From: a bacterium CPR1 | GTDB taxonomy: Bacteria > Vulcanimicrobiota > Xenobia > Xenobiales > QWHO01 | Length of the DNA stretch: 37,470 bases | Reading direction: 5' to 3' | NCBI GenBank assembly: GCA_021404945.1 | Contig: QWHO01000035.1 | Location: forward strand, 1-37,470 | Shown here: in pieces, positions 21,090-37,470 of the stretch | Layout of the letters: each line of letters starts with the position of its first letter | Position numbering within the stretch: the first letter of the stretch is position 1 | Translations under genes and position numbers: made by a program | Notes under the pieces: model-generated | The model's input: only the letters and a program-made list of their open reading frames with translations | Database searches by the model: none | Told to the model about the DNA's origin: nothing

Positions 21090-21095
21090 AGGGGG

Positions 21096-21104
21096 AGTAT
21101 ACCA
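21096..21104 (-). promoter_or_regulatory. Extended -10 promoter at the phosphatase start
   Basis: On the minus strand, TGGTATACT (TG-n plus TATACT, 5 of 6). Transcription would begin at about 21089, exactly at the GTG, giving a leaderless mRNA. No Shine-Dalgarno is present, and no good -35 is seen at 17 bases. Confidence 0.45.
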
Positions 21105-21115
21105 GATTTCGGGAC

Positions 21116-22738
21116 CTACGTTCCAGCGTCCTGCTGATCGGCACGGCCTTTCCGCCCGCGCCTCGTGGATCGCAGCCGGCGCTCGATCTCCTCGGGCTCG
21201 GCCGGTTTGCCGAAGTGGTAGCCCTGACCCAGGTGGCAACCCAGATCGCGCAGGCACTCGTGTTGGGCGGCCGTCTCGATGCCCTCGGCCAGCGACTCCA
21301 TGCCCAGGTTGTGGGCCAGCTCGATGACGGCGCTGGCGATGGAAGCGTCCTTGTAGTCGTCGGGCAGGCCGTGCACGAAGGAGGAATCGAGCTTGAGCAG
21401 GTGGCTTCGCAGGCTCTTGAGACGCGAGAGCGAGGAGTGGCCGACCCCGAAGTCGTCGATGGCCACCTTCAAGCCCAGCTCCTCCAGTCCGGCCAGAATA
21501 CGATCGGTATCGGCCCCGGCGCGCATGATGGCGGTCTCGGTCACCTCGATCTCGATGCTGCCCGGGGGTAGGCGATGAAGAGCGAGCAACTGCTTCAGTC
21601 GGGTCAGGAAGTCGGGGTGCATGAATTGGGCCACGGAGACGTTGCAGGCCACCACCAGGCGGGCCCCCTGAGCGTGCCAGAGGGCGGCCTGGCGCAGAGT
21701 CTCTTGCAACACCCAATCGCCGATGGGAATGATCAGGCCGTTCTCCTCGGCCATGGGGATGAACAGGGCCGGCGAGGTCAGCCCGCGTTCGGGCGAGAGC
21801 CAGCGGATCAACGCCTCGACTCCCACCATCCGGCTCGTTCCGAGCTCCACCACCGGCTGATAGGCTAGAAAGAACTCGCCCCGGCGCAGGGCCTGACGCA
21901 GTCGATTCTCGATGGCCATGCGCTCGGACTTTTCGCGCAAGAGGTCGCCGGAGTAGAGCTCGTAGCGGGTTCTCCCCAGCTCCTTGGCGCGATAGAGGGC
22001 GCTCTCGGCGCACTTGAGGGTCAACTGGGGGTCCAGCTCCGGGTGCACCAGAGCGATGCCGATGCTGGCCCCCACGTAGACCTCGCTCCCGTCGATCTCG
22101 AAGGGAGCCACCAGGCTCTCCAGCACCCGCTCAGCCACGGCTCCGGCTTCCAGGCTCGGGTCGCGCCTCCGGCGCCGGTCCATCTCGTGTTCCTCGGCTT
22201 CGTGGGCCCGGGCCGAGAGCACCACCAGGAACTCATCCTCGCCTCGCCGGCTGACCAGGTCGGTGGCCCGCAGGGTGGAGGCGAGCCTCAAGCCCACCTG
22301 GCGCAGCAGCTCGTCCCCCGTACGGTAGCCCAGCACCGCGTTGATGACGTGAAAGCGGTCCAGGTCGACCACCAGCAGGGCCGAGCTCGAGTGCACCCGG
22401 GCGTCCAGCGAGCGCAGGGCGGTCTCCATGGGGACCAGCCGGCGACCGGGCTCGGGCGCCGCCCGGGGACCCGGTCGCGTGCGCTGCTCGGGGAGCGAGC
22501 GCAGCACCACGAGCTCGGCCTCGGCTCCCTGCCAGTTGATGGCATGGCGCGAGACAAAGGCGCGACCCAGGCCGGGGATGGCCAGGGTCGAGTCGGTGGG
22601 AAGGTCGAGCTCGCGCCCCTCGATGGGGCCAAAGAGCTCTCGGGCGCGCTCGTTGGCAAAGGAGACGACGCCGTCGTAGCGCAGGATCAGCAAGGGCTCC
22701 AGGGCGGCCAGAATCCCGTGCAGGTCGCGTGGATTCAC
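21116..22738 (-). CDS. GGDEF-EAL protein, probable c-di-GMP phosphodiesterase
   Basis: 540 residues, GTG start at 22738 overlapping the kinase stop (GTGA). Residues ~8-75 form a PAS-like sensor (EPLLILRYDGVVSFANERA). The GGDEF domain (~105-275) has GEDEF at 166-170 in place of GGDEF, so cyclase activity is probably lost, although GTP may still bind. The EAL domain (~285-530) is intact: VEALIRW, EVTETAIM, IDDFGVGHSSL, LKLDSSFV and SLAEGIET carry the metal ligands and catalytic residues. It should therefore hydrolyse c-di-GMP. No receiver domain is present. Coupled translation with the kinase implies that the two share a stimulus or pathway. Confidence 0.93.
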   Translation of the reverse strand: MNPRDLHGILAALEPLLILRYDGVVSFANERARELFGPIEGRELDLPTDSTLAIPGLGRAFVSRHAINWQGAEAELVVLRSLPEQRTRPGPRAAPEPGRRLVPMETALRSLDARVHSSSALLVVDLDRFHVINAVLGYRTGDELLRQVGLRLASTLRATDLVSRRGEDEFLVVLSARAHEAEEHEMDRRRRRDPSLEAGAVAERVLESLVAPFEIDGSEVYVGASIGIALVHPELDPQLTLKCAESALYRAKELGRTRYELYSGDLLREKSERMAIENRLRQALRRGEFFLAYQPVVELGTSRMVGVEALIRWLSPERGLTSPALFIPMAEENGLIIPIGDWVLQETLRQAALWHAQGARLVVACNVSVAQFMHPDFLTRLKQLLALHRLPPGSIEIEVTETAIMRAGADTDRILAGLEELGLKVAIDDFGVGHSSLSRLKSLRSHLLKLDSSFVHGLPDDYKDASIASAVIELAHNLGMESLAEGIETAAQHECLRDLGCHLGQGYHFGKPAEPEEIERRLRSTRRGRKGRADQQDAGT

Positions 22739-25305
22739 GGCGGCCCCGCCAGGGGCAGGGTGAAGTGGAAGCGGCTGCCCTTGCCCGGCTCGCTTTCGAC
22801 CCCGATGCGGCCCCCGTGCTGGGTCACGATGCTCTTGCAGATGGCCAGCCCCAGACCGGTGCCCCCCTTGACCCGGGCGTCCGAGGCATCGACCTGCTGG
22901 AAGCGTCCGAAGACCGCGTCCAGCTTGTCAGCCGGAATGCCACGGCCCTGGTCGGTGACGGTGAATTCGACGCTGTGATCGACCAGGCGGACGCTCAGTG
23001 CGACGGTTTGCCCCTCACTTGAGAACTTGACCGCATTGGAAAGCAGGTTTACCAGCGTTTGCACCACCCGATCGGGGTCGGCTCGCAACGGAGACTGCAA
23101 AGGGTGGCCCTCCAGCAGCACCTTGCCCTTCTCGGCCAGGGGCTTGACGATGTCCAGAGCCGAGGTCACCAGGGCGGAAACTTCGGTATCCGAGACGTTC
23201 AGGCTGACCGTGCCCGACTCCATGCGCTCGATGTCGAGAATGTCATTGATCAGCCGCACCAGGCGGTCGGTGTTGTTGACTGCTATGTCCACCATCCGCT
23301 GGGCCTTGGGGCTGAGCTGGCCCAGCGCTCCCCCCGCCAGAAGACCCAGGGAGCCCCGGATGGAAGTCAGCGGCGTGCGTAGCTCGTGGCTGACCACCGA
23401 GACAAACTCATCTTTCATGCGCTCGACCTCTTTGTAGGCGGTGATATCGCGAAAGCTTACCACCGTTCCGAGCTGGCGTCCATGCTCTCGGATGGGCGTG
23501 ACCACCAGCTCGGCCGGAAAGCCTGTGCCATCTTTGCGCTGGAGCCATTCGTCGCGGTCGGAGAGAGTGGTCGATTGGGTCAGCGGGCAGTCGCTGCGTG
23601 CGTGCCTCGAGCCCGCGTGCACCAGGTCGTGGAGGTGAGCGCCCAGAAGCTCCAGGGCGTGATAACCTGTCAGCCGGACGGCAGCTGGATTGGCGAAGGT
23701 GACCCGGCCGAGCTCATCCAGCCCGCAGATCCCGTCCCCGGCCGAGTTCAAGATCAGCTCCATCTGCCGATTGATCCGTTCCAGGCTCTCGCGCACGCGA
23801 CCGCGCTCGATCGACTGGCCGATCTGGGAGGCCAGCGTCATGACCAGTTGCATGAGATCGGGGTCGGGCTCGAGCGGCTCACGACGGAAGAACTCCATCA
23901 CCGTGAGCACCTTGCCCTCGACCGAGATGGGGAAGGCCATGGCGCCTTTGAGACCGGCCTTGAGAGCCGGGCCGGCCCGGATGAAGATGGGATCGCTCTG
24001 CACGTCGGCCACCCAGGCTGGAATCCTCTGTTGATAGACCCGACCTGGCAGGCTGGTGGAGCGTGCGGCGAACGAGGAGCAGGCCTGAGTGAATGTCTTC
24101 AGCTCGTCGGCCGAGCCTCGAGTCCAGGAGCTCTGGAGCTCGAGCGTGTCGTCGAGCTCGTCCACCCCCCAGAGCAGGGCCACGTCCCAACCCAGCCCCT
24201 CGCCCAGGGTATCGAGCAGACGAGGCATGCTGGCCACCGTCGAGGTTGTCTGAGCCAGTTGGCGGGCCAGAGCGTACTGGATTTCGCGACGGCTCTGGTT
24301 GGTCTTGAGGTCGGTGATGTCGCGAGCCAGAGCGTAGAGGCAGCGGTCCTCCGGGAAGGAGCGACAATTCCAGGCCAGCCAGCGGTGCAGGCCGTCGCGC
24401 CGGCGAAAGCGGGCTTCGAAGGCACAGCTTGCCTGGCCCTGTCGGCTGCTCTCCAGCTCGCGCTCAGCCCGGGCCTGGTCGTCGGGATGAAGCAGCTCTC
24501 GCAGCGGGCGACCCTCGAGCTCGGAGCGGCTGTACCCGAACAGGGCCAACCAGACCGAGTTGAGTCGTTGGAAGCGGTGCTCGAAGTCAAGCGTGGCCAG
24601 CGGGTCGGCCGTGCTTTCGAACTGGCGGTCTCGTTCCAGCTCGGCTCGGGCCTGCTGGCGCAGGGAGCGGCCGAGGGCCAGAAAACAACCGGCCGAGAGG
24701 AGCACCGCCAGCAGGGCTTCGCCCAGCACGGCCAGCTGGGCAGTCCGGACCTGAGTGGCCATGGTGGTCCGTAACGAGCTTAGCCGTTGCTGTCCGCTTG
24801 CGCGCAGGTCTTCGGCTGCTGCCAGAAGCTCGCCCATCAGGGCTCTGCCCTCTTCTGCCCGGATGGACGCGACCGCCTCGGGGGTGCGTCCGGTCGTGGC
24901 CAGCTCGATGAGGCTCTCCATATGCTGGCGCAACGCGAGGAAAGCGTTTTCCAGTCGGGCCACGCGCTGGGCATCTTCGGGGATCTGGGCCACCAGCTCC
25001 CGGGTTCTGGCCAGGTGGAGGTCGAGGGTGCCGTGGACCTCCCGAAACTCGTCGAGGTAGATGGCCTCCCCGGTGAGGATCAGGGCGCGCTCGCTGGCTT
25101 TCATCTGAAAGAGCCGGCTGATCAGGTCTTCCACCGCGTGTTGGACTTCCAGGGTTCGGGCCGCTTGCTCGGTGGTGCGAGCGTAAGCGCTGGTGGCGTA
25201 GGAAGCGAAGCCGCCTCCCAGAGCCAGGATGGCAATCTGCACCAGGACCATCAGGGGGAGAGTGCTTCGGATCAGGCTCAAGCCGGGTGGCCGCCAATCG
25301 TCCAT
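22735..25305 (-). CDS. Hybrid-sensor histidine kinase: CHASE3-like, PAS, GAF, PAS, HisKA, HATPase
   Basis: 856 residues from ATG 25305 (TTG 25323 is an alternative). Membrane helix ~15-35, an extracytoplasmic helical CHASE3-like domain (~38-195, with TTEQAARTLEVQHAVEDLI), a second helix ~198-220, a PAS domain (~230-345, ending ARDITDLK), a GAF domain (~365-520), a second PAS (~525-640), HisKA with H-box SHELRTPLTSIRGS, and HATPase_c with N-box LLSNAVKFS, G1 DQGRGIP and G2 GGTGLGLAI. There is no receiver domain and no response regulator nearby. It shares a 90-base divergent promoter region with lexA. Confidence 0.93.
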   Translation of the reverse strand: MDDWRPPGLSLIRSTLPLMVLVQIAILALGGGFASYATSAYARTTEQAARTLEVQHAVEDLISRLFQMKASERALILTGEAIYLDEFREVHGTLDLHLARTRELVAQIPEDAQRVARLENAFLALRQHMESLIELATTGRTPEAVASIRAEEGRALMGELLAAAEDLRASGQQRLSSLRTTMATQVRTAQLAVLGEALLAVLLSAGCFLALGRSLRQQARAELERDRQFESTADPLATLDFEHRFQRLNSVWLALFGYSRSELEGRPLRELLHPDDQARAERELESSRQGQASCAFEARFRRRDGLHRWLAWNCRSFPEDRCLYALARDITDLKTNQSRREIQYALARQLAQTTSTVASMPRLLDTLGEGLGWDVALLWGVDELDDTLELQSSWTRGSADELKTFTQACSSFAARSTSLPGRVYQQRIPAWVADVQSDPIFIRAGPALKAGLKGAMAFPISVEGKVLTVMEFFRREPLEPDPDLMQLVMTLASQIGQSIERGRVRESLERINRQMELILNSAGDGICGLDELGRVTFANPAAVRLTGYHALELLGAHLHDLVHAGSRHARSDCPLTQSTTLSDRDEWLQRKDGTGFPAELVVTPIREHGRQLGTVVSFRDITAYKEVERMKDEFVSVVSHELRTPLTSIRGSLGLLAGGALGQLSPKAQRMVDIAVNNTDRLVRLINDILDIERMESGTVSLNVSDTEVSALVTSALDIVKPLAEKGKVLLEGHPLQSPLRADPDRVVQTLVNLLSNAVKFSSEGQTVALSVRLVDHSVEFTVTDQGRGIPADKLDAVFGRFQQVDASDARVKGGTGLGLAICKSIVTQHGGRIGVESEPGKGSRFHFTLPLAGPP

Positions 25306-25313
25306 GTGTTCGC

Positions 25314-25343
25314 TTGACCGCAACCGCCTGCCGGGTGTATGAT
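25314..25343 (+). promoter_or_regulatory. lexA promoter
   Basis: -35 TTGACC (25314-25319, 5 of 6), an 18-base spacer, -10 TATGAT (25338-25343, 5 of 6). Predicted start ~25350, 45 bases before the lexA ATG. The -35 lies just upstream of the divergent kinase ATG. Confidence 0.65.
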
Positions 25344-25377
25344 GCGAGCATGGTTCGTTAAATTATGCGAATGCATA
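25342..25377. promoter_or_regulatory. Two similar dyads, candidate LexA operators
   Basis: ATGC-GA-GCAT at 25342-25351 covers the end of the -10 and the start site. TATGC-GAAT-GCATA at 25364-25377 is perfect over 5-bp arms. Their centres are 24 bp apart. Autoregulation is the rule for lexA, and LexA boxes vary between phyla, so these are the natural candidates. The same sites could also act on the divergent kinase. Confidence 0.5.
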
Positions 25378-25395
25378 GTTCCCTGGAGGGAAGAA

Positions 25396-26037
25396 ATGAT
25401 GAAAACTCTCACCGCTCGCCAGTCCCAGATTCTCCATATGGTCTCCGATTTTCTGCAAGAGGGTCGATTGCCCTCGGCAATCCGACTCTCCGAAGAGCTC
25501 GGCCTGGCCGGAGAATCCAGTGTCACGCCGATCTTGAAGGCACTCGAGAAAAAAGGCTACCTGGATATCCAGGGTGGTATCAAAGGGCGCCCCCGCCAGT
25601 TGAGCTTGACCCCCAAAGGCAAGCAGGCGGTGCATAAGCCGGGTCTGCCGATTCTGGGCTCGATACCGGCTGGCCCTCTGCGCGAGGCACTCGAGCAAGC
25701 CGGCGAGTTCGCCGAAACGCTCAAGGACCTTTTGCCCTATCAGGACGGCGACTTCTTGTTGACCGTCGAAGGCGAGTCCATGATCGGGGACGGTATTCTT
25801 CCCGGCGATCAGGTTTTGATCCGGCCGGGCGTAATCCCTGCTGCGGGCGAGATCGTGGCGGTATGCGTGGGAAGCCACTACGAGGCCACACTCAAGCGCC
25901 TTTACCCCGAGCCCAGCAAGGGCAAGGTGCGGCTGGTTGCCTCCAATCCCGACTTCAAGGAGCAAGCCTACCCGGCGGAAGAGGTCAAGATCGTCGGGGT
26001 CCTGCGCGGGGTGGTGCGCCGCCATGTCGGCGGCTGA
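25396..26037 (+). CDS. lexA: LexA SOS repressor
   Basis: 213 residues; ATG 25396 follows GGAGGG (25385-25390). The N-terminal winged helix (1-75: LTARQSQILHMVSDFLQEGRLPS) is the LexA DNA-binding domain. The S24 protease domain has the Ala92-Gly93 cleavage bond (IPAG), nucleophile Ser128 (GESMI) and Lys167 (EATLKR), all at expected spacing, so RecA-stimulated self-cleavage should work. The helix-turn-helix recognition region (SAIRLSEELGLAGESSVTPILKAL) differs from E. coli, fitting a non-standard box. First gene of a set with imuB and DUF6504; the stop lies inside imuB. Confidence 0.93.
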   Translation: MMKTLTARQSQILHMVSDFLQEGRLPSAIRLSEELGLAGESSVTPILKALEKKGYLDIQGGIKGRPRQLSLTPKGKQAVHKPGLPILGSIPAGPLREALEQAGEFAETLKDLLPYQDGDFLLTVEGESMIGDGILPGDQVLIRPGVIPAAGEIVAVCVGSHYEATLKRLYPEPSKGKVRLVASNPDFKEQAYPAEEVKIVGVLRGVVRRHVGG

Positions 26038-27166
26038 GCTGGCCTTCGGCGTCCTCTGGCTGGCCGATTTTCCGGTCTGGGCCTGGCGCCGTCTCGAGCC
26101 GGCTCTGGCCGAGCGCGAGCTTCTGGTGGTGGCCGCCGGACAGGTGGTCAGCCTCACCCCGGCTCTGCGCCAGGCCGGCATTCGAGTGGGCTTCAGTCGG
26201 GAGCGGGCTCTGGCCCTGGCCCCCCGGGCCGAAGTGCGGCTGGCGGCAGGCATCCCTCAGGGCCTGATTGAGGAGGAGGTGCTGCAAGCCTGCAACCGCT
26301 ATACTCCCTGGCTCGAGTCTCAAGGGGCGGGGCTGTTGGTGGCCAGGCTGGCCGCTCACGAGCTGGACGAGCTGGCCGCTTGCTTCGGGGCCCGGGCGGG
26401 GCTGGCCAGCGATCGCTCCACCGCTTATCTGGCGGCTCTGGCTGCTCGCCCGGGCCGGTTGCTCCAGGTGAGCGCCGGCCACGAGCACCTCTTTCGCCAG
26501 GCCCTGCCGCTGGCCTTGCTGGGTCGAGCCGAGCTCTCGCCCGACAGCTTGCAGAAGCTTTCCTGGCTGGGCTTCAGCACGGTGGCCAGCTTGCTGGGCC
26601 TGACCCGGGCCCAGCTGCAGGCCCGTCTGCCTGAAGGCGAGCAGCTTTACTGGCTGAGCCGCTGGGAGGATCGTCGTCCGGTGCCGCTCTACAGCCCTCC
26701 TCTCGAGTTGGAGTCTCGCTGGGCGCGCGAGGAAGAGCTCGATGAGCTCGAGCCGGTGCTGCGCCACTTGCTTGGCGAGCTGTTGCCTCGATTGGGGACG
26801 CGTCGGGTCAGCCGGGTCACGGTCGAGGCCGGCTCGGTGGCGGCCCGGCGTTACCTGCAGAGCCCCACTGCCCGTTCTGGTCCGCTCTGGAATGCCGTGT
26901 CGAGAGCCGGTCATGAAGCCCTGGCTGCTTGCCGCGAGCGGCCTGACGAGCTCGCTCTCCGGTTGGGCGGTTTGCTTTCGCCACCGGCTCGCCAGGAGCT
27001 GCTGTTCGCTCCTGCTCGACGCAGCCTGCGCCCCGAGGGGTTGCAGAAGGCGCTGCGCCGCCTCGAGGCGCGCCTGCCGGGTCGGCTGCTCAAGGTGCGC
27101 TACCACAACCCTGAGGCCTACCTGCCCGAGGAAGCCTGGACGCTGGAGCGCCTGCACCCCTCATGA
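26024..27166 (+). CDS. imuB: ImuB-like inactive Y-family polymerase homologue
   Basis: 380 residues, ATG 26024 overlapping the end of lexA by 14 bases. The N-terminus GVLWLADFPVWAWRR resembles the ImuB version of the Y-polymerase palm; the DxDxFFA metal motif of active enzymes is absent. Palm, fingers (RVGFSRERALALAP), a helix-hairpin-helix region (LQKLSWLGFSTVASLLGL) and a little-finger domain (ELESRWAREEEL...) are recognisable. ImuB normally bridges the beta clamp and DnaE2 in a damage-induced mutagenic complex. A C-terminal clamp-binding motif is not obvious. No imuA or dnaE2 gene is in the window. Confidence 0.82.
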   Translation: MSAAELAFGVLWLADFPVWAWRRLEPALAERELLVVAAGQVVSLTPALRQAGIRVGFSRERALALAPRAEVRLAAGIPQGLIEEEVLQACNRYTPWLESQGAGLLVARLAAHELDELAACFGARAGLASDRSTAYLAALAARPGRLLQVSAGHEHLFRQALPLALLGRAELSPDSLQKLSWLGFSTVASLLGLTRAQLQARLPEGEQLYWLSRWEDRRPVPLYSPPLELESRWAREEELDELEPVLRHLLGELLPRLGTRRVSRVTVEAGSVAARRYLQSPTARSGPLWNAVSRAGHEALAACRERPDELALRLGGLLSPPARQELLFAPARRSLRPEGLQKALRRLEARLPGRLLKVRYHNPEAYLPEEAWTLERLHPS

Positions 27167-27411
27167 GGCAGGTCATGGAGCCGATCGAGGTGCGGGTGGA
27201 GGCCGACGGATTGAGGGCCTTTCGCTGGCGCAGACGGGTCTATCCCGTCGAGCAGATCCTGGAGAGCTGGGTCTACCGGGGCCGCTGGTGGACCGACGAG
27301 TGTCTGGCCGGCGAGCGGCGGGTCTACTACCGCCTCCTGGCCCGACCGGGCTGCTATGAGCTGTATCGCTCCGACCGCCAGGGCTGGGTGCTCAGTCGAG
27401 TCCTGGATTGA
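27163..27411 (+). CDS. DUF6504-like small protein
   Basis: 82 residues; ATG 27163 overlaps the imuB stop (ATGA), with ATG 27175 as an alternative. The pattern FRWRRRVYPVEQILESWVYRGRWW followed by YYRLLA, YELYRS and GWVLSRVLD fits DUF6504, a small basic/aromatic beta domain found beside or fused to Y-family and DnaE2-type polymerase genes. That gives it a likely role in the mutagenesis complex or its DNA contacts. The family's biochemistry is unknown. Last gene of the lexA set; the convergent M13 peptidase gene ends 24 bases further on and no terminator hairpin is visible between them. Confidence 0.7.
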   Translation: MRQVMEPIEVRVEADGLRAFRWRRRVYPVEQILESWVYRGRWWTDECLAGERRVYYRLLARPGCYELYRSDRQGWVLSRVLD

Positions 27412-27435
27412 AGCGCCTGTTCTGAGCGGGATCTC

Positions 27436-29835
27436 CTACCAGAGCTGGGCTCGCTCGGTCTCGGGCAGGGCCATCGGCTGGCCCGGCTCCACTGCGTAAG
27501 CGGCTGCGAAGGCGGGCAGGTTCTTCAGCGTCTGGTTGATGCGGAACTCGACCACCGGGTGCGGGTCGGTCTGCACCTGCTGGCGGGTGGCCTCGGGGCG
27601 CTGGTTGTTGGCCCACACCTGGCCGAAGCCCATGAAGAAACGCTGCTCGGGCGTGAATCCGTCCAGCTTGGGTCCGAAGGGTTTGCCCTTGAGCGAGTTC
27701 TGGTAGGCGGTCAGGGCCAGGGTCACACCGCCCACGTCGGCCAGGGCTTCGCCCAGCACCAGGTTGCCGTTCAGGCGCAGGCCCGGCTCCACCTCGTAGC
27801 TGTCAGCCTGGGCCTTGATGACCCCGGCCCGGCTCATGAACTCCTCGCGGTCGGCCTCGGTCCACCAGTTGCGCAGGTCGCCCTCGGCGTCGAACTTGGA
27901 GCCATTGTCGTCGAAACCGTGGGTGAACTCGTGCCCGATGACCATGCCGATCCCGCCGTAATTGATGGCGTCGTCGGCCTGAGCGTCGAAGAAGGGGGGC
28001 TGCAGGATGGCGGCTGGGAAAACGATCTCGTTGTTCTGGGGGCTGTAATAGGCGTTGACCATGGCCGGGGACATGTGCCAGGCTGCCTTGTCGACCGGTT
28101 GCCCGATCTCGGCCAGGTCCTTGCGGGCTGCCCAGGCGCGAATGCTCATCACGTTCTGGCCGTAGACCCCGCGCTCGACGGGAATGTCGGACTCGTCTGG
28201 CCACTCGTCCGGGTAGCCCACCTTCACGCCCACGTTGGCCAGCTTGTCCAGGGCCTGGGATTTCGTCTCGGGGCTCATCCAGTCAAAAGAGCGGATGTGC
28301 TCGCCCAGGGCTCCGCGGATGTTCTCGATCATCTCCTCGCAGCGAGCCTTGGATTCGGGCGGGAAGGTGCGCTCCACGTAGGCCCGGCCCAGCGACATGC
28401 TGAGGTGGTTGGCGGTGGAGTCGGCCATGCGCTGGTCGCGAGGCTTGCGTCCCTGGGCCCCGCTCAGCACCTTGCCGAAGAAGTTGAAGCTCTCCTCATC
28501 GAATCGGGCCGGCAGGAAGCCGGCCGCGCCGTCCACCAGGCGCACCTGCAGGTAGGCCTTCCAGTCCTCCACCGGGGTCTCGGACAGCTCGCGGTCGAGC
28601 TGCTCAAAGAAGCGCGGGGTGGCCATGTTGACGGTCTCGAGCGATTCCAGCCCCAGCCCGCTCAGATAGCCGTTCCAGTTGAAGTTGGGCGTCAGCGCCT
28701 GCAACTCGTCGCGATTCATGATGTGGTAGAGGTTGGCCGGGTCGCGCATCTCGGCCTTGGTGAGCGAGGCGTTGGCCAGCCGGGTCTCCAGGGCCATCAC
28801 TCGTCCGGCCTTGGAGGAGGCCGTGGCGCTGTCGTCGCCGAGCAACTCGAACACCTTGCCCAGGTGCTCCAAGTAAGCGGCCCGCAGCTGGTCGGCCTTC
28901 TCGCCCTGGTCCTCGTAATAGTTCTTGCCGGGTAGGCCCAGGCCGCCCTGGTAGGCGCCGGCGATGTTCATGGTGCTGTCATGGTAGTCGGTCACGCTGC
29001 CGAAGCCAAAGGCGGCCCCGTTGCCGGTGCGGTGGAGCTCGGTCAGGGTGGCTTGCACGTCGGCCGCGTTTTGAATCGAGCTGATGCGGTCGAGCAGGGG
29101 CTGGACGGGGGAGAGGCCGGCCGCCTCGATGCTGGCCGTGTCCATAGCGCTGGCGTAGAAGTCGCCCAGCTTCTGCTCCACCGAGCCCTTCGGGGCGTCG
29201 GTGCGTCCGGCGTACTCCTCCAGGATTTGCTTCTGGATGCGGGTGCTGGCCTCGCGCAGCTCGTTGAATCGGCCCCAGCGCACCTGGTCGTTGGGGATCG
29301 GGTTCTTGGCCAGCCAGCCGCCGTTGATGTGCTGGTAGTAGTCTTGCTGGGGAGCCACGGCCGGGTTCAGGTTGCTGAGATCGAACCCGTGGCCAGGAAC
29401 GCTCTCAGACTGGCTCAGAGCGATATCGCGCAGGGTGGTGAGATAGGCCGCGCCGGCCCCGCTGGCCTGCGGGCTGGTGTGGGCCGTGACGGCGGCAGCT
29501 TTGGCGGCCGCTTCCGGCTCGCTCGTAAGAGTCGCGATCTGGTCGAGGTAGATGTTGGCGACCTGGGCTCGCACTCGCGGGTTGTCCACCGTCTCCAGGG
29601 TGCGCACTCCAAGCTGGGCAAGCACCACGCTGGCCGGTCCACTGAGGCTGACCCCCAGAGCGTTGGTGGCTGTAGCCTGGCCGCTCTTGGCCAGCGAGGA
29701 GGCGCTGGGTGGCTGGGGCCGGCCCAACTCGGCCTGGTCCACCGGGACCGATTCTTGCGTCTGGCCGGCAGAAGCCGCCTGGGGTCTTGAGCTCAGCGGG
29801 GCGATGGACTGGGCGGAGAGGGGGCGAACGAGCAA
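27436..29835 (-). CDS. M13 (neprilysin-like) zinc metallopeptidase with long N-terminal extension
   Basis: 799 residues from TTG 29835, with GGAGG 8 bases upstream on the minus strand. Catalytic features are complete: NAYYSPQNNEIVFPAAILQ, zinc site HEFTH at about 637, third zinc ligand in GEALADVGG at about 697, and the HPVVEFRIN substrate region. The usual C-terminal C-x-x-W ends here as RAQLW, without the Cys. The first ~150 residues are unlike M13 proteins: low-complexity Ser/Ala/Gln, no signal peptide, no membrane anchor. M13 enzymes cleave peptides outside the cytoplasm, so either a non-classical export route or a cytoplasmic role is implied. A strong inverted repeat covers the ribosome site. 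Confidence 0.92.
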   Translation of the reverse strand: MLVRPLSAQSIAPLSSRPQAASAGQTQESVPVDQAELGRPQPPSASSLAKSGQATATNALGVSLSGPASVVLAQLGVRTLETVDNPRVRAQVANIYLDQIATLTSEPEAAAKAAAVTAHTSPQASGAGAAYLTTLRDIALSQSESVPGHGFDLSNLNPAVAPQQDYYQHINGGWLAKNPIPNDQVRWGRFNELREASTRIQKQILEEYAGRTDAPKGSVEQKLGDFYASAMDTASIEAAGLSPVQPLLDRISSIQNAADVQATLTELHRTGNGAAFGFGSVTDYHDSTMNIAGAYQGGLGLPGKNYYEDQGEKADQLRAAYLEHLGKVFELLGDDSATASSKAGRVMALETRLANASLTKAEMRDPANLYHIMNRDELQALTPNFNWNGYLSGLGLESLETVNMATPRFFEQLDRELSETPVEDWKAYLQVRLVDGAAGFLPARFDEESFNFFGKVLSGAQGRKPRDQRMADSTANHLSMSLGRAYVERTFPPESKARCEEMIENIRGALGEHIRSFDWMSPETKSQALDKLANVGVKVGYPDEWPDESDIPVERGVYGQNVMSIRAWAARKDLAEIGQPVDKAAWHMSPAMVNAYYSPQNNEIVFPAAILQPPFFDAQADDAINYGGIGMVIGHEFTHGFDDNGSKFDAEGDLRNWWTEADREEFMSRAGVIKAQADSYEVEPGLRLNGNLVLGEALADVGGVTLALTAYQNSLKGKPFGPKLDGFTPEQRFFMGFGQVWANNQRPEATRQQVQTDPHPVVEFRINQTLKNLPAFAAAYAVEPGQPMALPETERAQLW

Positions 29836-29838
29836 AGA

Positions 29839-29876
29839 AGCCTCCAGAATGTTCTTGTGGTAGCATTCTAGAGGCT
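29839..29876 (-). promoter_or_regulatory. Hairpin over the M13 peptidase ribosome-binding site
   Basis: Arms 29839-29851 and 29864-29876 with a 12-base loop. In DNA 12 of 13 pairs match; in minus-strand RNA the odd pair is U-G, so all 13 can pair. The downstream arm contains the GGAGG of the peptidase gene. It may block translation, or be an operator if transcription starts inside it (TGCTACCAC, 29855-29863 region, is a weak extended -10). Confidence 0.6.
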
Positions 29877-29909
29877 CCGACCGGTCAGGATGGTTGCCTT
29901 TGTGTAAAA

Positions 29910-30431
29910 CTACAGTCGGGGTCGCAGTCGAAAGGAGCCCAGGTAGCGGTCAAGCTCGGTTTCGTCATAAGCGTCCTCGGTCTGGCCGCCCAGAACCTGG
30001 TAGAGCCGGTTCTTGACCAGATAGAGGCGGGCTTTGGCTTTGATCTTCTTGCTGGGAGCCGAGAACACGAGCTCGAGGCCCGGGTGGCCCTCCAACTCGA
30101 TCCAGCTCTCCTTCTCGAGTTTGCCGTCGACGTTGCGCAAGGCTCCATCGCGCGCGCCTTGGAGCAGCTCCCTGGCGTTCTTCTTGTCGATGGCCCAGTC
30201 GGGAAAGTCTGCGTAGGCCGAGGCGAACCCCCAGGTGCGCCCCTCGCTCAGGGCCATGTGGAAGTTGATGGTGCCCACATCGGTAGAGATCTTGTCACTG
30301 GACTCCTTGGGAGCGTGGGGCACCTCCACCGAATAGCCACCCTTGTTGGAGCGGTATTCGGTCCAGCGGGACTGGCCGCAGCCAGCCATCATCAGCGCCA
30401 TTGCCAGCAGGGCGAGAAGCGGTTTCTGCAT
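29910..30431 (-). CDS. Lipoprotein of unknown function
   Basis: 173 residues from ATG 30431, with AGGTGG upstream; GTG 30443 is an alternative. Signal peptide with lipobox LMMAGC, so Cys18 is the likely lipidated residue. The mature part (SNKGGYSVEVPHAPKES...INFHMALSEG...GLELVFSAPSKKIKAKARLYLVKNRLYQVLG) has the alternating pattern of a PsbP/Mog1-like single-domain fold, similar to many small envelope lipoproteins. No function assigned. A strong promoter lies upstream (30464-30492). The M13 peptidase gene starts 74 bases downstream and may be read from the same transcript. Confidence 0.8.
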   Translation of the reverse strand: MQKPLLALLAMALMMAGCGQSRWTEYRSNKGGYSVEVPHAPKESSDKISTDVGTINFHMALSEGRTWGFASAYADFPDWAIDKKNARELLQGARDGALRNVDGKLEKESWIELEGHPGLELVFSAPSKKIKAKARLYLVKNRLYQVLGGQTEDAYDETELDRYLGSFRLRPRL

Positions 30432-30463
30432 TTTTCGTTCCACCTGCCTTTTAGTATGTGTTA

Positions 30464-30492
30464 ATTATACACTATTTGGAGTGTGAGGTAAA
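30464..30492 (-). promoter_or_regulatory. Lipoprotein promoter
   Basis: Minus strand: -35 TTTACC (30487-30492), a 17-base spacer, -10 TATAAT (30464-30469, perfect). Predicted start ~30457, about 26 bases before the ATG. A GTGT...ACAC dyad with outer TAGT...ACTA arms (30453-30475 region) overlaps the -10, a possible operator. Confidence 0.65.
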
Positions 30493-30663
30493 GCAGGAAA
30501 CAGGCCTGGCACGGAAATGCCAGCCCTCCTCTTTCCCGGGAATCAGAGAGCCTCCGCGGTTTGCTGCCGCGCGATCGACGAGACGACAAAGGAGCGCTCA
30601 GCGCTCTCTGGCCGACAGAGCGGCAGGCCGCCTGACCTTGTGGTCGAACAGCCGACTCTCGCG

Positions 30664-31926
30664 ATGAAGCCCTACCGCCCCAAAGTCCTGCGCGACCCGG
30701 TGCACGGCAGCCTGCCCATCCCCTGGCCGGTGCTGCTCGACCTGGTGGACACGCCCCTGTTCCAGCGCCTGCGCGGCATCCGCCAGTTGGGGATGTGCTA
30801 CACCACCTTCCACGGTGCCGAGCACTCGCGCTTTCAACACGTGCTTGGGGTCATGTGGCTGATGCACAGGGTTCTGGAGCGCTGGCGCACCCTGGCCGAC
30901 CTGCCCGAGATCGAGTGCCAGGCGGCCTGTGCCGCCGCCCTGCTCCACGACGTGGGCCACGGACCCTTTTCCCACGCTCTCGAGCGCGTCTTCTCGCGCG
31001 TCGACCACGAGTCGCTCTCGCGTCGCATCGTGCGCGAGCGCCTGGCCCCCGTTCTGGAGCGGCACGGGCTGAGCACGGAGATGGTGACCGCCATCATGGA
31101 GGGCACCTATCCTCGGCTGGCTTTTCACGAGCTTCTGGCCAGTCAGTTGGACGTGGACCGCATGGACTACCTGCTGCGCGACTCGCTCTACACAGGCGTG
31201 CGCTACGGCCTGTTCGACCTGGACCGCATCCTGGCTTCACTGGTGCCGCTGGAGGACGAGCCGGGGGGCCTGCTGGCCGCTCTCGACCCCAAGGGGGTGG
31301 ACGCGGTGGAGGAGTTCTTGTTCAGTCGCTACTTCATGCAGTGGCAGGTGTATCGCCACCGCACCGTGCGCTCGGCCGAGGCATTGTTGCGGGCGGTGCT
31401 CGAGCGCTCGCGGCAGGCTTACCTCGAGAGCCCCACCTCGCTGTCCATTCCGCCCAACCTGGAGTTTTTGTTCCGTGAGGAAGACCCGACCAGCCAGGAC
31501 TTCCTCGACGACTTCCTGCTGCTCGACGACTTTGATCTGTTCCACGCCATCAAGCTCTGGCGCCGCAGCAGCGATCCGGTTCTGGCCGATCTCTCGGCCC
31601 GCTTCAGCGAGCGCCGCCCCTACAAGGTGCTGCCCCATCCGGGGCCGGGCGAGCGGCTGGAAGCCGTCGAGAAGCTCGTAAGACAGCGGTTCGGCCAGGC
31701 CTGGAGCTTCTATCTGCTGTCCGACTCACCCGAGGACGCCGGCTTTGAGGTCTACCGGGGCGACCACAATCGGCCCATTCGGGTCAAGACCGGACCCCGG
31801 ACCTGGCGAGAGTTCAGCCAGATGACCCGCACCGACGCCGTGCTCTCCCTGGCCGCCACGGTGCGCACAGACAATCTGCTCATTGCCCCCGAGTGCCGCG
31901 AGCAAGCAACCCGGTTGCTTGAGTAG
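30664..31926 (+). CDS. HD-domain phosphohydrolase (dGTPase-like superfamily)
   Basis: 420 residues from ATG 30664 (GTG 30640 is an alternative; neither has a Shine-Dalgarno). The N-terminus RPKVLRDPVHGSLPI...TPLFQRLRGIRQLG is the signature of the YdhJ/SAMHD1-like HD branch. Metal ligands: His59 (RFQHVLG), His95-Asp96 (LLHDVGHGPFSH) and the Asp of QLDVDRMDYL (~163-165). These enzymes remove phosphates from nucleotides such as dNTPs. The C-terminal ~200 residues vary and are not recognised. The 194-base upstream gap holds only small hairpins (CTGGCA/TGCCAG at 30506-30523; GAGCGC/GCGCTC at 30592-30606). Confidence 0.9.
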   Translation: MKPYRPKVLRDPVHGSLPIPWPVLLDLVDTPLFQRLRGIRQLGMCYTTFHGAEHSRFQHVLGVMWLMHRVLERWRTLADLPEIECQAACAAALLHDVGHGPFSHALERVFSRVDHESLSRRIVRERLAPVLERHGLSTEMVTAIMEGTYPRLAFHELLASQLDVDRMDYLLRDSLYTGVRYGLFDLDRILASLVPLEDEPGGLLAALDPKGVDAVEEFLFSRYFMQWQVYRHRTVRSAEALLRAVLERSRQAYLESPTSLSIPPNLEFLFREEDPTSQDFLDDFLLLDDFDLFHAIKLWRRSSDPVLADLSARFSERRPYKVLPHPGPGERLEAVEKLVRQRFGQAWSFYLLSDSPEDAGFEVYRGDHNRPIRVKTGPRTWREFSQMTRTDAVLSLAATVRTDNLLIAPECREQATRLLE

Positions 31927-31960
31927 CCCGCCAGGTCATCGCCAGGAATCAAGCCCTGCT

Positions 31961-32671
31961 TCAGTAGTTGCGATGGGCGGTGGCCGGCCAGCTGGGCTCG
32001 GAGCGTTTGCCGTTGCTCCCCACGGCGATGACCCGGAAGCGGTACGGTCCGGGTAGGGGATGGTTGAGCAAGAAGACTTTGTTGTCCGACTGCTCGCCCA
32101 GGATGTCCTTGGCCGGAACCCACTTGCCCTCGAGCTCCTCCTCGATCTGGTAGCTGGCCGCTCCGGCTACTTTACGCCAGGACAGCTGAACGCGGTCGTT
32201 CTCGGAGAACACCGCGATCAACCCGGAGGGCTCCTCGGGGGCCGGTGCGGTGGGGTCGGAAATCGGCTTCTTGGGCGGAGTGGGGCCGGTCGGGTTGGAG
32301 GGAGTGGGATTGGTCAGGCTGGCCCGGGAGGCGGTCCGGGCCCCGATGGGGGTCGAGTTGGGGGAGACCGCTCCCTGGCTGCCCACGGCTCGCACCACGA
32401 ACTCGTAGGGAGTGTCGGCACTCAGGCCGGTGATGGTGGTGGAGGAGGTCAGGGGGGTTCGGTTCGGGTCCTCGGCGTCGAACCACCACTCGCTGCCCCG
32501 GTACTGCAGCACCTCATAGCCAATCGCGCCGGGAACAGGGTCCCAGCGGAGCTCGAGGCGAGTGGTCCCGTCGGCACCCGGCGGGGTCTTGGCCTGCAGG
32601 TTGGTGGGAGCCGGAAGCCCCTGACACCAAGCCGGAAGGCAGAGGAGCAGGCAGAGCAGAACCGCGCGCAA
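31961..32671 (-). CDS. Secreted protein with two fibronectin type III domains
   Basis: 236 residues, TTG start at 32671, 2 bases after the TerB-like stop. Signal peptide ~1-17 (VLLCLLLCLPAWCQG). FN3 domain 1 (~20-112: PAPTNLQAKTP...LELRWDPVPGAIGYEVLQ...TITGLSADTPYEFVVRAVG), a Pro/Thr-rich linker (~113-148), FN3 domain 2 (~150-232: VQLSWRKVAGAASYQIEEE...GPYRFRVIAVGSNGKRSEPS). FN3 domains mediate binding, often to carbohydrate or protein; no enzyme domain is attached. The TTG start is assumed because the signal peptide begins there. Confidence 0.88.
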   Translation of the reverse strand: MRAVLLCLLLCLPAWCQGLPAPTNLQAKTPPGADGTTRLELRWDPVPGAIGYEVLQYRGSEWWFDAEDPNRTPLTSSTTITGLSADTPYEFVVRAVGSQGAVSPNSTPIGARTASRASLTNPTPSNPTGPTPPKKPISDPTAPAPEEPSGLIAVFSENDRVQLSWRKVAGAASYQIEEELEGKWVPAKDILGEQSDNKVFLLNHPLPGPYRFRVIAVGSNGKRSEPSWPATAHRNY

Positions 32672-32673
32672 GG

Positions 32674-33048
32674 TCAGGCGCCTGCCTCGAGCGCCTTCAG
32701 GGTCTCCTCTTTCAGGGCCGCAAAATCTTCATCCTTGATCTCCAGCGTCTTGGCCATTTTGTTCAGGAAGCGCAGCTCGGAGATGTTGACCCGTCCGTCG
32801 GCCAAGGACATGGCCAGCACAACCTTCAAGATGTCGCAGCGGGCCTCGTAATCGGAAACCTGCTCGCGCAGATCGTCGAGCTCGGGGGGCTTCTGGAGCA
32901 TGGCCCCGACTTCCATGACCTCTTCGGGCGAAGCCCCCAGCTGGGCCAGAATCCCGCCCAGCATCTCGCGCTCTTCAGCGGCCATCTCCCCGTCGGCCCA
33001 GATGGCCTTGACCAGGGTCTTCACCAGAGCCTTCTCATTGTCTTCCAC
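32674..33048 (-). CDS. TerB-like tellurite-resistance family protein
   Basis: 124 residues; GTG 33048 with GGGAGG upstream. All-helical with the repeated TerB pattern: AIWADGEMAAEEREML (~16-31) and AMSLADGRVNISELRFL (~78-94), each with an A-D-G-x(3)-x-E motif that can bind metal. TerB domains occur in stress and phage-defence related membrane complexes, but a single small copy outside a ter cluster, as here, has no fixed role. It precedes the FN3 gene by 2 bases. Confidence 0.82.
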   Translation of the reverse strand: MEDNEKALVKTLVKAIWADGEMAAEEREMLGGILAQLGASPEEVMEVGAMLQKPPELDDLREQVSDYEARCDILKVVLAMSLADGRVNISELRFLNKMAKTLEIKDEDFAALKEETLKALEAGA

Positions 33049-33176
33049 GGCGCCCTCCCGTAATGAATTTGGACCGCTCCTATCGTCGCTGAAAGTTGCA
33101 GCGGCCGCTTTCGTTATACGCGGGAGGGCGCGACCCCTGCCAGGAACCCCCTGGCGGATGGGGAACGTCGGCTCGC

Positions 33177-34046
33177 ATGCCCGCCCCCCCTCTGGACCTG
33201 CTCTGGGCCCGCCTCGACGGCAACAACCGCCCGGCGCTGGAAACTCGCCTCTCGGTGCTCGATCACGGCCTGCTCTACGGCGATTCCGCCTACGAGACCC
33301 TGCGCACGTACGCCGGTAAAGTGTTTCGCCTGGGCGAGCATCTGGCTCGCCTGAGACGGACTGCGGCCGGCATTCGATTGGAGCTGCCCTGGACCGACGC
33401 GGAGCTGGCCGCTGAGATTGCCGCGCTGCAGGCCGACCTTCAGGGTGAGCTTTACATCCGTTTGCTCGTTCTGCGCGGGGTGGGCGAGCTGGATTACGCC
33501 CGCAACGGGGCTCAGCGGCCCACGCTGTTGGTTCTGGCCGGTCCCTTCGTGGAGCAGCCTGAGTGGCTCTACACTCGGGGCCTGACGGCCGGCCTGGTGG
33601 AGATGCGCCGATCTCCCCACCAGGCTTTGAGCCCCACCTACAAGACGGGTAACCTGCTCAACGCCCGGCTGGCCCATATGGAGGCCCGCGAGCGAGGCTG
33701 GCAGGAAGCCTTGATGCTGAGCCTGGAGGGCCACCTGACCGAGGCATCCTCCAGTAACCTGTTCCTGGTTCTCGACGGGGTGCTGTCCACACCAGCTGTG
33801 TCGGACGGCATCCTGGAGGGGGTGACCCGCAATGCCGTGCTCGAGCTCGCGGTCGCTGCGGGCCTCCCCACCCGGGTGGCTTCACTCGGTCCCGAGACGC
33901 TCGATCAGGCCAGCGAGGCATTCTTGACCAGCACCACGCGGGCTGTGGGGCCTATCGGCCAGCTGGGCGGGCGCAATCTGCCCGTTCCGGGGCCGCTCAC
34001 GGCTCGATTGATGGAGCTTTTTCGCGCTCACGCAGGAGGTTTGTAG
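33177..34046 (+). CDS. Class IV PLP aminotransferase (BCAT/D-AAT/PabC type)
   Basis: 289 residues from ATG 33177. Start region DHGLLYGDSAYETLRTYAGKVFRLGEHL is the fold-type IV signature, and LSPTYKTGNLLNARL carries the PLP-binding Lys. LTEASSSNLFLVLDGVLSTP is the family PLP-binding motif. Members are branched-chain or D-amino-acid aminotransferases, or 4-amino-4-deoxychorismate lyase (PabC) of folate synthesis. Without pabA/B nearby I cannot choose among them. No clear Shine-Dalgarno. The stop is followed after 1 base by the MoaB-like gene, whose ribosome site lies in this gene's end. Confidence 0.9.
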   Translation: MPAPPLDLLWARLDGNNRPALETRLSVLDHGLLYGDSAYETLRTYAGKVFRLGEHLARLRRTAAGIRLELPWTDAELAAEIAALQADLQGELYIRLLVLRGVGELDYARNGAQRPTLLVLAGPFVEQPEWLYTRGLTAGLVEMRRSPHQALSPTYKTGNLLNARLAHMEARERGWQEALMLSLEGHLTEASSSNLFLVLDGVLSTPAVSDGILEGVTRNAVLELAVAAGLPTRVASLGPETLDQASEAFLTSTTRAVGPIGQLGGRNLPVPGPLTARLMELFRAHAGGL

Positions 34047-34047
34047 G

Positions 34048-34497
34048 ATGATTAGCTGTCTCGTCATCACCGTAAGCGATACCCTCAGCTACGAGAACGA
34101 TCCCGCCGGGCAGGCAATCCGCAGTCGGCTGGAGGCGGCCGGGCACGGGCTGCTCGGCTATCACCTGGTACCGGACGACCCGATGCGGCTCAAGGCACTC
34201 TTGATCGGAGCCCTGGGTGACCACGGGATTCGAGCCATCTTACTCAGCGGCGGCACGAGCACGGTGGACGTCGTGGAAGGTTTCCTGGAGCGTCGCATGG
34301 AGGGTTTCGGAGAGTTGTTCCGCTTCCTGCTCTTTCAGGAGGTCGGCTCCTCGGCCGTGCTGGCGCGCACGCTGGCCGGTTTTCACCGTGGCCGGGTGCT
34401 GATCGCCCTGCCCGAGGCACCTCAGGCGGTGGAGCTGGCCATGGACCGGCTGATCGCGCCCGAGCTGGCCAATATGGTGGCTCAAGCATGGCGCTGA
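34048..34497 (+). CDS. MoaB/MogA-like molybdopterin-binding protein
   Basis: 149 residues; ATG 34048 after AGGAGG (34034-34039). LVITVSDTLSYENDPAGQAI and FGELFRFLLFQEVGSSAVLARTLAGFHRG fit the MoaB/MogA fold of molybdenum cofactor synthesis (molybdopterin adenylylation or binding). Two signatures are altered: the usual GGTG-x(3)-RD is GGTSTVDVV, and LPGSP is LPEAP. The substrate site may therefore be changed. The window has no other molybdenum-cofactor gene, and the partner in the operon is an aminotransferase, so the role may lie outside cofactor synthesis. Confidence 0.82.
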   Translation: MISCLVITVSDTLSYENDPAGQAIRSRLEAAGHGLLGYHLVPDDPMRLKALLIGALGDHGIRAILLSGGTSTVDVVEGFLERRMEGFGELFRFLLFQEVGSSAVLARTLAGFHRGRVLIALPEAPQAVELAMDRLIAPELANMVAQAWR

Positions 34498-34637
34498 TTC
34501 TGAGACGATCCCGTGCCAGAACGTCTCTTGCGACGAATGTGCGTTCCCTGAGCCGAGCCGCGGACGGAGCATGATCCGCTTCGGGGGTGGATCACGACGA
34601 AAGTGTGTTCTCGATCCCGCCGTAACGACGACCCGGG

Positions 34638-35486
34638 TTAACCCTTCGCCTTGCGCCCCTCGCTGAGCAGCTCCCCCGGCGTGGTGCGCACCCCCAGCAC
34701 GAAGGTGCCGAACTCGGCGAAGACCGCGCTGACCTCATCGAACCGCATTTCGTAAATCAGCTTCTTGAAGGCCACCGCGTCGTCAGAGAACAGGTCCACC
34801 CCCCAGTCGTAGTCGTCGAGCCCCACCGAGGAGCTGATGATCTGGGTGACCTTGCCCGCGAAGCGGCGCCCGATCTTGCCGTGCGAGACCATCATCTGGG
34901 CCCGCTCGCGGTTGCTCAGCATGAACCAGTTCTTCAGCTCGCCCCGGCGCTTGTTCATGGGGTAAAAGCAGATATAGCGCTTGTCGGGCAGCTGGGGATA
35001 GAGCCGTGCCTGCATGGCCGAGCGCTCCTGGGCGAGCAGCTCTTCAGCGGCCGCCTCGAACTCGGTCGTCCCGGGTTTCAGTCCGGATTTCTCGAGCCTG
35101 GCGGCGTGACGCTCGGCGGCTCCGTGCAAGGACAGCTCCACCACCGAAAGATACGACCAGGTGGGCTCGAGGAAGTCCATCAGGTCGAGTGCGCCGGCCA
35201 CGCGCTCGCAGTCGAGCAGCTCTTCCGGGGTCTGGCGCAGAAAGACCAGCATCAGGTCGCCCTTGTGGCCCAGAATGCGGAAACACCCCCCGGCCTCATC
35301 GCGCTCAGCCGGAGCAAACAGGGCTTTGAGCTTCTTGGAGGCCTGCGAGCGGATGGCTTTCTGTTCCTTGGTCGAGGCCCTGCTCCAGGCTTTCCAATCG
35401 ACGGCGTAGAGCTGGTGGAGCATGAAGGCTCCCTCGAGAGTGGCGGGGGCGGTGCTCTCCTGCTGCGGTGCGGTGACGGTCATCAT
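34638..35486 (-). CDS. hemQ: Coproheme decarboxylase HemQ
   Basis: 282 residues; ATG 35486, followed by a second ATG. Chlorite-dismutase fold with the HemQ hallmarks: proximal His202 in MVSHGKIGRRF, Tyr175 in RYICFYPMNKRR (the radical-forming Tyr), the NWFMLSNRERAQMM helix, and GLDDYDWGVDLFSDD. HemQ removes two propionate carboxyl groups from iron coproporphyrin III to make heme b. That is the coproporphyrin-dependent pathway, used by Actinobacteria, Firmicutes and several deep lineages. About 22 extra N-terminal residues are polar and probably disordered. Convergent with the MoaB-like gene; the 140-base gap has a weak TGATCC/GGATCA dyad (34572-34594). Confidence 0.93.
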   Translation of the reverse strand: MMTVTAPQQESTAPATLEGAFMLHQLYAVDWKAWSRASTKEQKAIRSQASKKLKALFAPAERDEAGGCFRILGHKGDLMLVFLRQTPEELLDCERVAGALDLMDFLEPTWSYLSVVELSLHGAAERHAARLEKSGLKPGTTEFEAAAEELLAQERSAMQARLYPQLPDKRYICFYPMNKRRGELKNWFMLSNRERAQMMVSHGKIGRRFAGKVTQIISSSVGLDDYDWGVDLFSDDAVAFKKLIYEMRFDEVSAVFAEFGTFVLGVRTTPGELLSEGRKAKG

Positions 35487-35590
35487 GCGTTTTGCCTTCG
35501 CAGCCGCCCTTCAGCTCCCTTTCGGTTGCCTGTTGTAACATTCTGGACATCTTCCGTTTACTTCTCGGAAAAAAATCGCCCCGGGTGGGT

Positions 35591-35599
35591 TGCTATACT
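35591..35599 (+). promoter_or_regulatory. Extended -10 promoter of the 138-residue unknown gene
   Basis: TGCTATACT (TG-n plus TATACT, 5 of 6). Predicted start ~35606, about 20 bases before ATG 35627, which has GGGAGG at 35617-35622. The spacing is normal, so this transcript has a short leader. No -35 matches at 17 bases. Confidence 0.5.
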
Positions 35600-35626
35600 G
35601 GGGGCGAAGACCGTTCGGGAGGTTCC

Positions 35627-36043
35627 ATGGAATCTGTTCCTTTCACCAACCTGTATGGTATCGTGGCCAACCAGGCGAGCCCGGCCAAGACAGCCGCTCC
35701 CATCCACACGGACGCCCGCGCTTTCGAGAGCGCGCTGGCTCAGGCCCGAGGGGACCAGGAAACAACCCCGACCAAACGCGCGAAGTCTGCCAGTAACCTG
35801 ATGTTCAGCAAGATGGGAGCGGGCGTGACCATCCCGGTCCCTCACAAGGTCGACTCCCAGCGCCAGGTGGATACGGCTCGCACAGCCCTCTACGAGCAGG
35901 TGCTGCAGACCCGGGGCATCTCCCACCAGATGATAAGTCAGTTGGCCGCCGGGGGCGGCAGCCAGGCCTTCCTGAACTTCCGGGGCGTGCTGTCCGAGGG
36001 ACAGCTTGAAGCCCGTCAGGCAGTTCTGCACCGCCTCCACTAA
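35627..36043 (+). CDS. Small protein of unknown function
   Basis: 138 residues; ATG 35627 with GGGAGG 4 bases upstream and a good extended -10. No signal peptide or membrane helix. The first ~65 residues are polar and likely disordered (AQARGDQETTPTKRAKSAS). The C-terminal half is helical (TARTALYEQVLQTRGISHQMISQLAAGGGSQAFLNF). The style of a disordered N-terminus followed by a short helical domain resembles secretion substrates and flagellar or type III accessory proteins, and the N-terminal region of the M13 peptidase is similarly Ser/Ala/Gln-rich. This is only a resemblance in composition. Confidence 0.75.
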   Translation: MESVPFTNLYGIVANQASPAKTAAPIHTDARAFESALAQARGDQETTPTKRAKSASNLMFSKMGAGVTIPVPHKVDSQRQVDTARTALYEQVLQTRGISHQMISQLAAGGGSQAFLNFRGVLSEGQLEARQAVLHRLH

Positions 36044-36071
36044 CCTCCATCTGTCAGAAGGTTTGCAGCCT

Positions 36072-36094
36072 GGCTCCGTGGTAACCACGGGGCC
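36072..36094 (+). promoter_or_regulatory. 10-bp hairpin ending right before the pepP start codon
   Basis: GGCTCCGTGG (36072-36081), loop TAA, CCACGGGGCC (36085-36094). Nine Watson-Crick pairs and one U-G pair. The ATG begins at 36095, directly after the stem. The only ribosome-site-like sequence, AGAAGG, lies at 36055-36060. If the hairpin stays folded it would bring that site to within ~11 unpaired bases of the start. Confidence 0.55.
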
Positions 36095-37453: not shown

Positions 37454-37470
37454 GCTATCTGCAGTGAAAG

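Follow-up and report, generated by a model that had tools for sequence, protein, structure and literature searches.

The ribosome-binding site of an M13 peptidase gene in the bacterium CPR1 (GTDB lineage Vulcanimicrobiota, Xenobia) is covered by a real hairpin, one of the strongest of its kind in the sampled part of this genome. The leading reading of this hairpin, to which we give somewhat less than even confidence on the basis of sequence and energy modelling, is that of an intercistronic terminator, perhaps a partial one, with a 3' arm and tail that also serve as the ribosome site of the peptidase. This reading takes precedence because the hairpin lies just past the stop codon of the upstream gene and is followed by a U-rich tail. 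The machinery is ordinary and the layout is economical.

The peptidase gene occupies positions 27436-29835 on the minus strand of the window (the whole stretch of DNA that was analysed, 37,470 nucleotides in length), has a TTG start at 29835 and encodes 799 aa with matches to Peptidase_M13_N (4.4e-118) and Peptidase_M13 (2.6e-66). Because the gene sits on the minus strand, the relevant RNA is the reverse complement. An earlier note on this DNA had claimed a stem in which all 13 positions pair, one of them as G-U, around a 12-base loop, and these arms proved exact: 29839-29851 and 29864-29876 are 13 nt each with 12 nt between them, and form 12 Watson-Crick pairs out of 13 and one G-U pair. In the minus-strand RNA the helix even extends to 15 consecutive pairs (29878-29864 with 29851-29837), closed by the same 12-nt loop (29852-29863, unpaired in the predicted fold), with the G-U pair inside the 13-bp core and no interruption in the pairing; taken alone, this helix amounts to -22.2 kcal/mol. 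The 5' arm (29864-29878, 15 nt) holds a -10-like hexamer, TAGAAT, at 29870-29865, while the 3' arm (29837-29851) contains, as had also been noted, the GGAGG Shine-Dalgarno (SD) sequence at 29845-29841, 5 nt ahead of the TTG. The U-rich tail TCTTTGCT (29831-29838, minus strand, 5 T of 8) comes after the 13-bp stem and overlaps both the spacer and the TTG codon. On the opposite strand, and converging on the M13 gene, LexA (S24, LexA_DNA_bind), an IMS-type polymerase-like ORF (a weak match, below the Pfam cut-off) and a DUF6504 ORF lie in a row at 25396-27411 (+), which by analogy we take to be an SOS mutagenesis-type cassette.

The TTG at 29835 is likely to be the start of the peptidase, judging from its SD, from its being the sole start codon before codon 32 and from its distance to an N-terminal motif. 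The open frame has no ATG, GTG or TTG ahead of 29835, and the next ones are at codons 32 and 37. The resulting N-terminus, MLVRPLS...VDQAELG, has likenesses in the same genome in MLVTPVS...ADQVQLS (L224, read from an ATG four codons past its called start) and MLVHSTM...LDSVRLS (L204). The motif D[SQR][VA]x[LV][GS] occurs at residues 22-46 in 11 of 599 proteins of the genome and at residues 122-146 in none of them; it begins at residue 33 in the peptidase (DQAELG) and at residue 34, counted after its ATG, in the relative at L003 (DRVQVS). The same motif disfavours a later alternative start. N-terminal alignment with this nearest relative was not significant (1910 of 5000 shuffles were as good), and the coding potential of codons 1-31 is near neutral and does not alone decide the start. 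A recurring N-terminal region, with about 28-34 residues from the start to the motif and often rich in S/P/A/Q, was observed in proteins of L150, L151, L154 (M13), L160, L204, L212 and L224, and is possibly a lineage-specific sorting or leader region, although some of the 11 motif-bearing proteins look like chance. Terminators can also mislead start calling, as at L197 (646-2161, minus strand), where the called TTG falls within the run of U that belongs to a clear terminator, and where the ATG found 14 codons further on fits the N-terminal motif distance better.

That the hairpin captures the ribosome site is well supported by the energy model for any RNA holding both arms, in which the predicted unpaired fraction of the SD is 0.0003 at 37 °C, 0.0004 at 42 °C and 0.019 at 80 °C, the highest temperature modelled. 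This part of the earlier note's interpretation therefore stood in the model, whereas the thermometer, the protein-bound switch and the DNA operator that it offered as explanations did not fare well. An RNA thermometer is exceedingly improbable. The SD is indeed paired in a hairpin adjoining the start, as in the ROSE and fourU elements; however, a thermometer must melt, yet here the modelled SD is less than 2% unpaired even at 80 °C. According to the relevant parts of PMC3669281, ROSE-type thermometers pair imperfectly, and one that had been mutated so as to pair its SD perfectly was reported to be too stable for melting, whereas the helix considered here is an uninterrupted one of 15 bp.

Comparison with shuffled sequences and with other starts of the genome bears on whether the hairpin is an unselected inverted repeat that happens to fall over a ribosome site. 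In the 80-nt region, a stem of -22 kcal/mol or stronger arose in only 1 of 20,000 dinucleotide shuffles. A simple gene finder, derived from 60 stretches of the same genome (600,905 bases, 500 genes), gave a plausible gene map when applied to window positions 20001-37470. Among the 459 usable starts of these 600 kb, no ungapped stem over the SD position was stronger than the M13 hairpin, and -20 kcal/mol was reached in 1 of the 459 genes versus 0 of 4590 shuffled upstream regions. When the sample was enlarged to 120 stretches of the same genome (1,061,312 bases, 831 genes, 768 starts), SD-position stems of -12 or stronger were found at 22 of the 768 starts, and the M13 hairpin ranked second overall and top among stems with GGAG or GAGG in the 3' arm. 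The first rank fell to L206 (-33.0), which is repeat-like, carries GGAGGTTCCCTCC and has neither GGAG nor GAGG in its 3' arm, and whose start call may be wrong. SD-covering hairpins were not significantly enriched in co-directional gaps of 20-150 nt (8 of 151 versus 14 of 617, Fisher p 0.056). Folded in its entirety, the 120-nt region has an unexceptional energy (z -1.80, with 11 of 200 shuffles equally or more stable); this, together with the lack of a common capture among the M13 genes whose starts could be folded and the fact that the hairpin was picked after the entire window had been scanned, speaks for chance, which the two shuffle counts nevertheless make improbable.

Several other hairpins came to light in this sampling. 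At 36071-36095 (+) the window holds a second strong hairpin (-19.8 kcal/mol, 11 bp, loop of 3), the third strongest start-covering hairpin of the 768 starts, which lies 27 nt past the preceding co-directional stop and ends on the first base of ATG 36095 of an M24 aminopeptidase-P-like gene; as this too is a start-covering hairpin preceding a metallopeptidase gene, the layout might be reused in the lineage. A dispersed intergenic hairpin repeat, TAAAGTGCAAGRCC...GGTCTTGCACTTTA, was seen at L127, L132, L151, L166, L174 and L212, being followed at L132 and L166 by a second hairpin, AACGCGCTGGAACGCAGTTT..., and its GGTCTTGCACTTT occurs 7 times in 6 of the 120 loci. The sequence GGAGGTTCCCTCC has 7 occurrences in 7 of the 120 loci (L145, L150, L175, L206, L234, L236 and L241), forms the apex of a long hairpin at L175 and L206, and may mark a second hairpin family.

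The upstream co-directional gene (29910-30443, minus strand) encodes a protein of 177 aa with no Pfam family, whose N-terminus reads like a lipoprotein signal, and its stop codon lies 31 nt before the 15-bp hairpin. A strong sigma-70-like promoter for this gene (30464-30492, minus strand; TTTACC, 17, TATAAT) was the sole site found in a consensus scan of 28800-32500, with a score of 17.1 as against a 90th percentile of 9.9 across 128 divergent upstream regions. The corresponding scan for the peptidase gave no good promoter: the best candidate, TTGACC-16-TCGACT, has a poor -10 (starting at 29931), lies inside the upstream gene and scores 7.2, which surpasses 90% of 144 close co-directional and 60% of the 128 divergent upstream regions. 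RNA started from this candidate would include both arms of the hairpin and hence its lock on the ribosome site.

Evidence for termination comes from the position of the helix just past the upstream stop and from the U-rich tail, neither of which the earlier note had mentioned. Tails were scored with weights modelled on published terminator scoring; the count took in hairpins of -15 kcal/mol or stronger, and a score of 3 or more was taken as a terminator-like U tail. With up to three outer pairs trimmed, the M13 hairpin reaches 3.08. The threshold of 3 was reached or exceeded by 13 of the 56 strong hairpins that lie no more than 60 nt past a stop (the M13 hairpin included, as the lowest of the 13), compared with 4 of 529 same-strand intragenic hairpins, 3 of 24 at 60-150 nt and 3 of 145 farther away, and by 2 of 104 SD spacers other than that of the peptidase. 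This enrichment after stops argues that the tail suits a terminator better than a chance hairpin or an ordinary spacer. Furthermore, the outer stem AGCCTC...GAGGCTT is common to the M13 hairpin and to terminator-like hairpins in L141 and L162, and related letters occur in some clear terminators of the sample, for example AGAGCCTCCTCCGGGAGGCTTTTTG in L141. Like intrinsic (Rho-independent) terminators, the M13 hairpin thus offers a strong G+C-containing helix soon after a stop codon and then a U-rich stretch, although the latter follows the helix in a weak form. It differs from them in that its U-tract is short and interrupted, its loop of 12 nt is on the long side for a terminator, and the 3' arm and tail are at the same time the ribosome site and start codon of the next gene. 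Among stop-proximal hairpins with loops of 10 or more, such a tail was seen in 2 of 11, of which the M13 hairpin is one; a terminator scan with a loop limit of 8 did not list it.

If the hairpin acts as such a terminator, RNA polymerase coming from the upstream promoter would be stopped or thinned at it, and any read-through RNA would fold the same helix, hiding GGAGG so that it would be poorly translated. The 3' arm and the U-rich tail would serve equally as Shine-Dalgarno sequence, spacer and start codon of the peptidase, and the net effect would be to insulate the peptidase from upstream transcription by making read-through RNA both scarcer and untranslatable. Counting against this proposal, a terminator lying 1-4 nt before the start codon means that the peptidase needs another transcript. 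Leaky read-through is one way in which the peptidase could be made, and a start inside the hairpin is another; the 5' arm, with its -10-like TAGAAT, gives a hint of such an internal start, of the kind used by gene e of phage T4.

In this regard, it is possible, though we hold it only tentatively, that the hairpin is a translational lock without termination, silencing the peptidase on read-through or operon mRNA, while the productive mRNA starts inside the hairpin at TAGAAT and lacks the 5' arm. A start directed by this hexamer would fall in the loop, near 29858, and no other -10 hexamer of the region scores as high as TAGAAT (8.8, the next being 4.9); in the model, SD accessibility climbs only once the 5' end of the RNA passes 29877. 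According to the portions of PMC3014915 concerned with them, the ribosome sites of T4 gene e, soc, 49 and I-TevI lie under inhibitory RNA structure, and in gene e and its relatives the DNA that specifies the 5' strand of this helix contains a late promoter, so that internally started RNA is free of the lock. Like gene e, the M13 hairpin buries the SD in a helix when the RNA is the longer one, here by prediction; unlike gene e, for which 5' ends from the late promoter were mapped and repression was measured, it offers a -10-like hexamer without a -35 (best combined score 4.3) and a terminator-like tail. That tail, being rare in SD spacers, also weighs against a lock alone. Moreover, the SD of 5'-truncated RNA remains largely paired in the model, with coding sequence as its partner: its mean unpaired value is about 0.15 in one fragment, and four of the five SD bases stand at 0.02 or less in another, which argues against a fully free site. 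It is rather unlikely that the dyad combines three roles, ending transcription of the upstream gene, locking the ribosome site of read-through RNA and hosting the peptidase -10 element; in such an arrangement, only RNA started inside the hairpin would escape both gates.

Unlikely as well is a switch in which a protein, a ligand or translation of a leader opens or holds the hairpin, or in which an antiterminator swaps with it. A precedent exists in mgtC-mgtB (mgtQ), where, as described in the pertinent sections of PMC8092293, an intercistronic stem-loop sequesters the downstream ribosome site and is opened by a small ORF. At the M13 locus, however, the stretch from the upstream stop to the 5' arm contains no ATG, GTG or TTG (an ATG first appears within the arm, at 29866), and no competing fold goes beyond chance: the 5' arm could alternatively pair with the upstream gene, but 24.3% of 1000 shuffles were as good, on which ground an antiterminator was rejected, and longer folds retain the hairpin. 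The rpfB leader of M. tuberculosis is presented in the corresponding passages of PMC6009663 as a real terminator-based attenuator with alternative folds, of which the modelling gave no sign at the M13 hairpin. No Rfam family matched in the window at the gathering threshold, and the single match within 29700-30050 (E 3.7, at 29708-29724) lies on the opposite strand and away from the hairpin. The exact dyad pattern was present in 0 of 14 other genomes of the order, and the protein-bound switch put forward in the earlier note found no family, repeat or conservation in its support.

The third suggestion of that note, a DNA operator at which a repressor acts and within which transcription starts, appears decidedly improbable. 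The length of the dyad and the -10-like element inside it would suit an operator, and two further half-site matches were found in the genome, with none for the reversed-pattern control. Against this, the exact dyad occurs once in the 7.4 Mb genome and is absent from the 14 relatives of the order (as far as exact copies go, diverged ones being possible), loose half-sites in the window are near chance (77 found, 63.6 expected, with 5 of 100 shuffles giving as many), no good promoter accompanies the TAGAAT, which has no -35, and the asymmetric U-rich tail is left unexplained. An operator with many sites was rejected on the uniqueness of the exact dyad. The looser pattern AGAATG...CATTCT occurs at 4 places in the genome (reversed-pattern control, 0). 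Of the three besides the M13 dyad, C617 forms a terminator-like hairpin of 14 bp that follows an ORF, C639 fails to take up the dyad fold and C561 is a strong hairpin next to an ORF read as integrase-like. A mobile or repeated element was likewise discarded, as BLAST of the 74-nt spacer in its own genome gave the spacer itself and nine other matches with E of 0.89 or higher.

Relatives of the M13 peptidase were found in 23 of the 58 genomes searched, its own included, with the best long matches elsewhere being 48-49% identical and one 183-residue fragment in G016 reaching 57%. As the long matches are at most 49% identical, the spacer is too diverged to align and does not allow a covariation test. 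From 30 M13 loci (L002-L031, including that of the window and a paralog of the same genome), four of which gave no frame by motif, the 14 starts with a candidate SD of 4 or more, namely that of the peptidase and 13 others, were folded, all of them as candidate starts; the upstream regions of 77 contig loci were left out. Among the 13 others, a hairpin at the ribosome site was seen at L006 (-12.4) and, at a doubtful internal start, at L029, whereas L003, L004, L005, L007 and L018 have hairpins upstream of the ribosome site instead; at L003 and L007 the 3' end of the hairpin lies 50 nt and 34 nt before the M13 start, as expected of between-gene hairpins. In this small set, then, the M13 genes do not have capture of the ribosome site in common. 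The upstream protein has weak relatives (24-29% identity) in 7 other genomes, on contigs other than those of their M13 matches, so that these fragmented assemblies give no sign of a conserved gene pair. Among the literature titles looked at, which do not amount to a novelty search, none was about this locus. At L011, L012, L026, L027 and L028, a conserved 151-codon frame ends at an in-frame TAG about six codons before the M13 ATG; save for that TAG the whole frame is open across 829-830 codons, and GCGAACGCG in the spacer is identical in all five. Translational coupling and TAG read-through are both possible there.

The intercistronic terminator that doubles as a ribosome site, if true, would represent a compact insulation between co-directional neighbours in a little-studied lineage. 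It would also serve as a caution, in that a strong SD-capturing hairpin located just past an upstream stop may well be a terminator and not a thermometer or a riboswitch. In conclusion, what the M13 peptidase gene carries at its start may well be a tidy form of gene insulation and is probably not a heat sensor.
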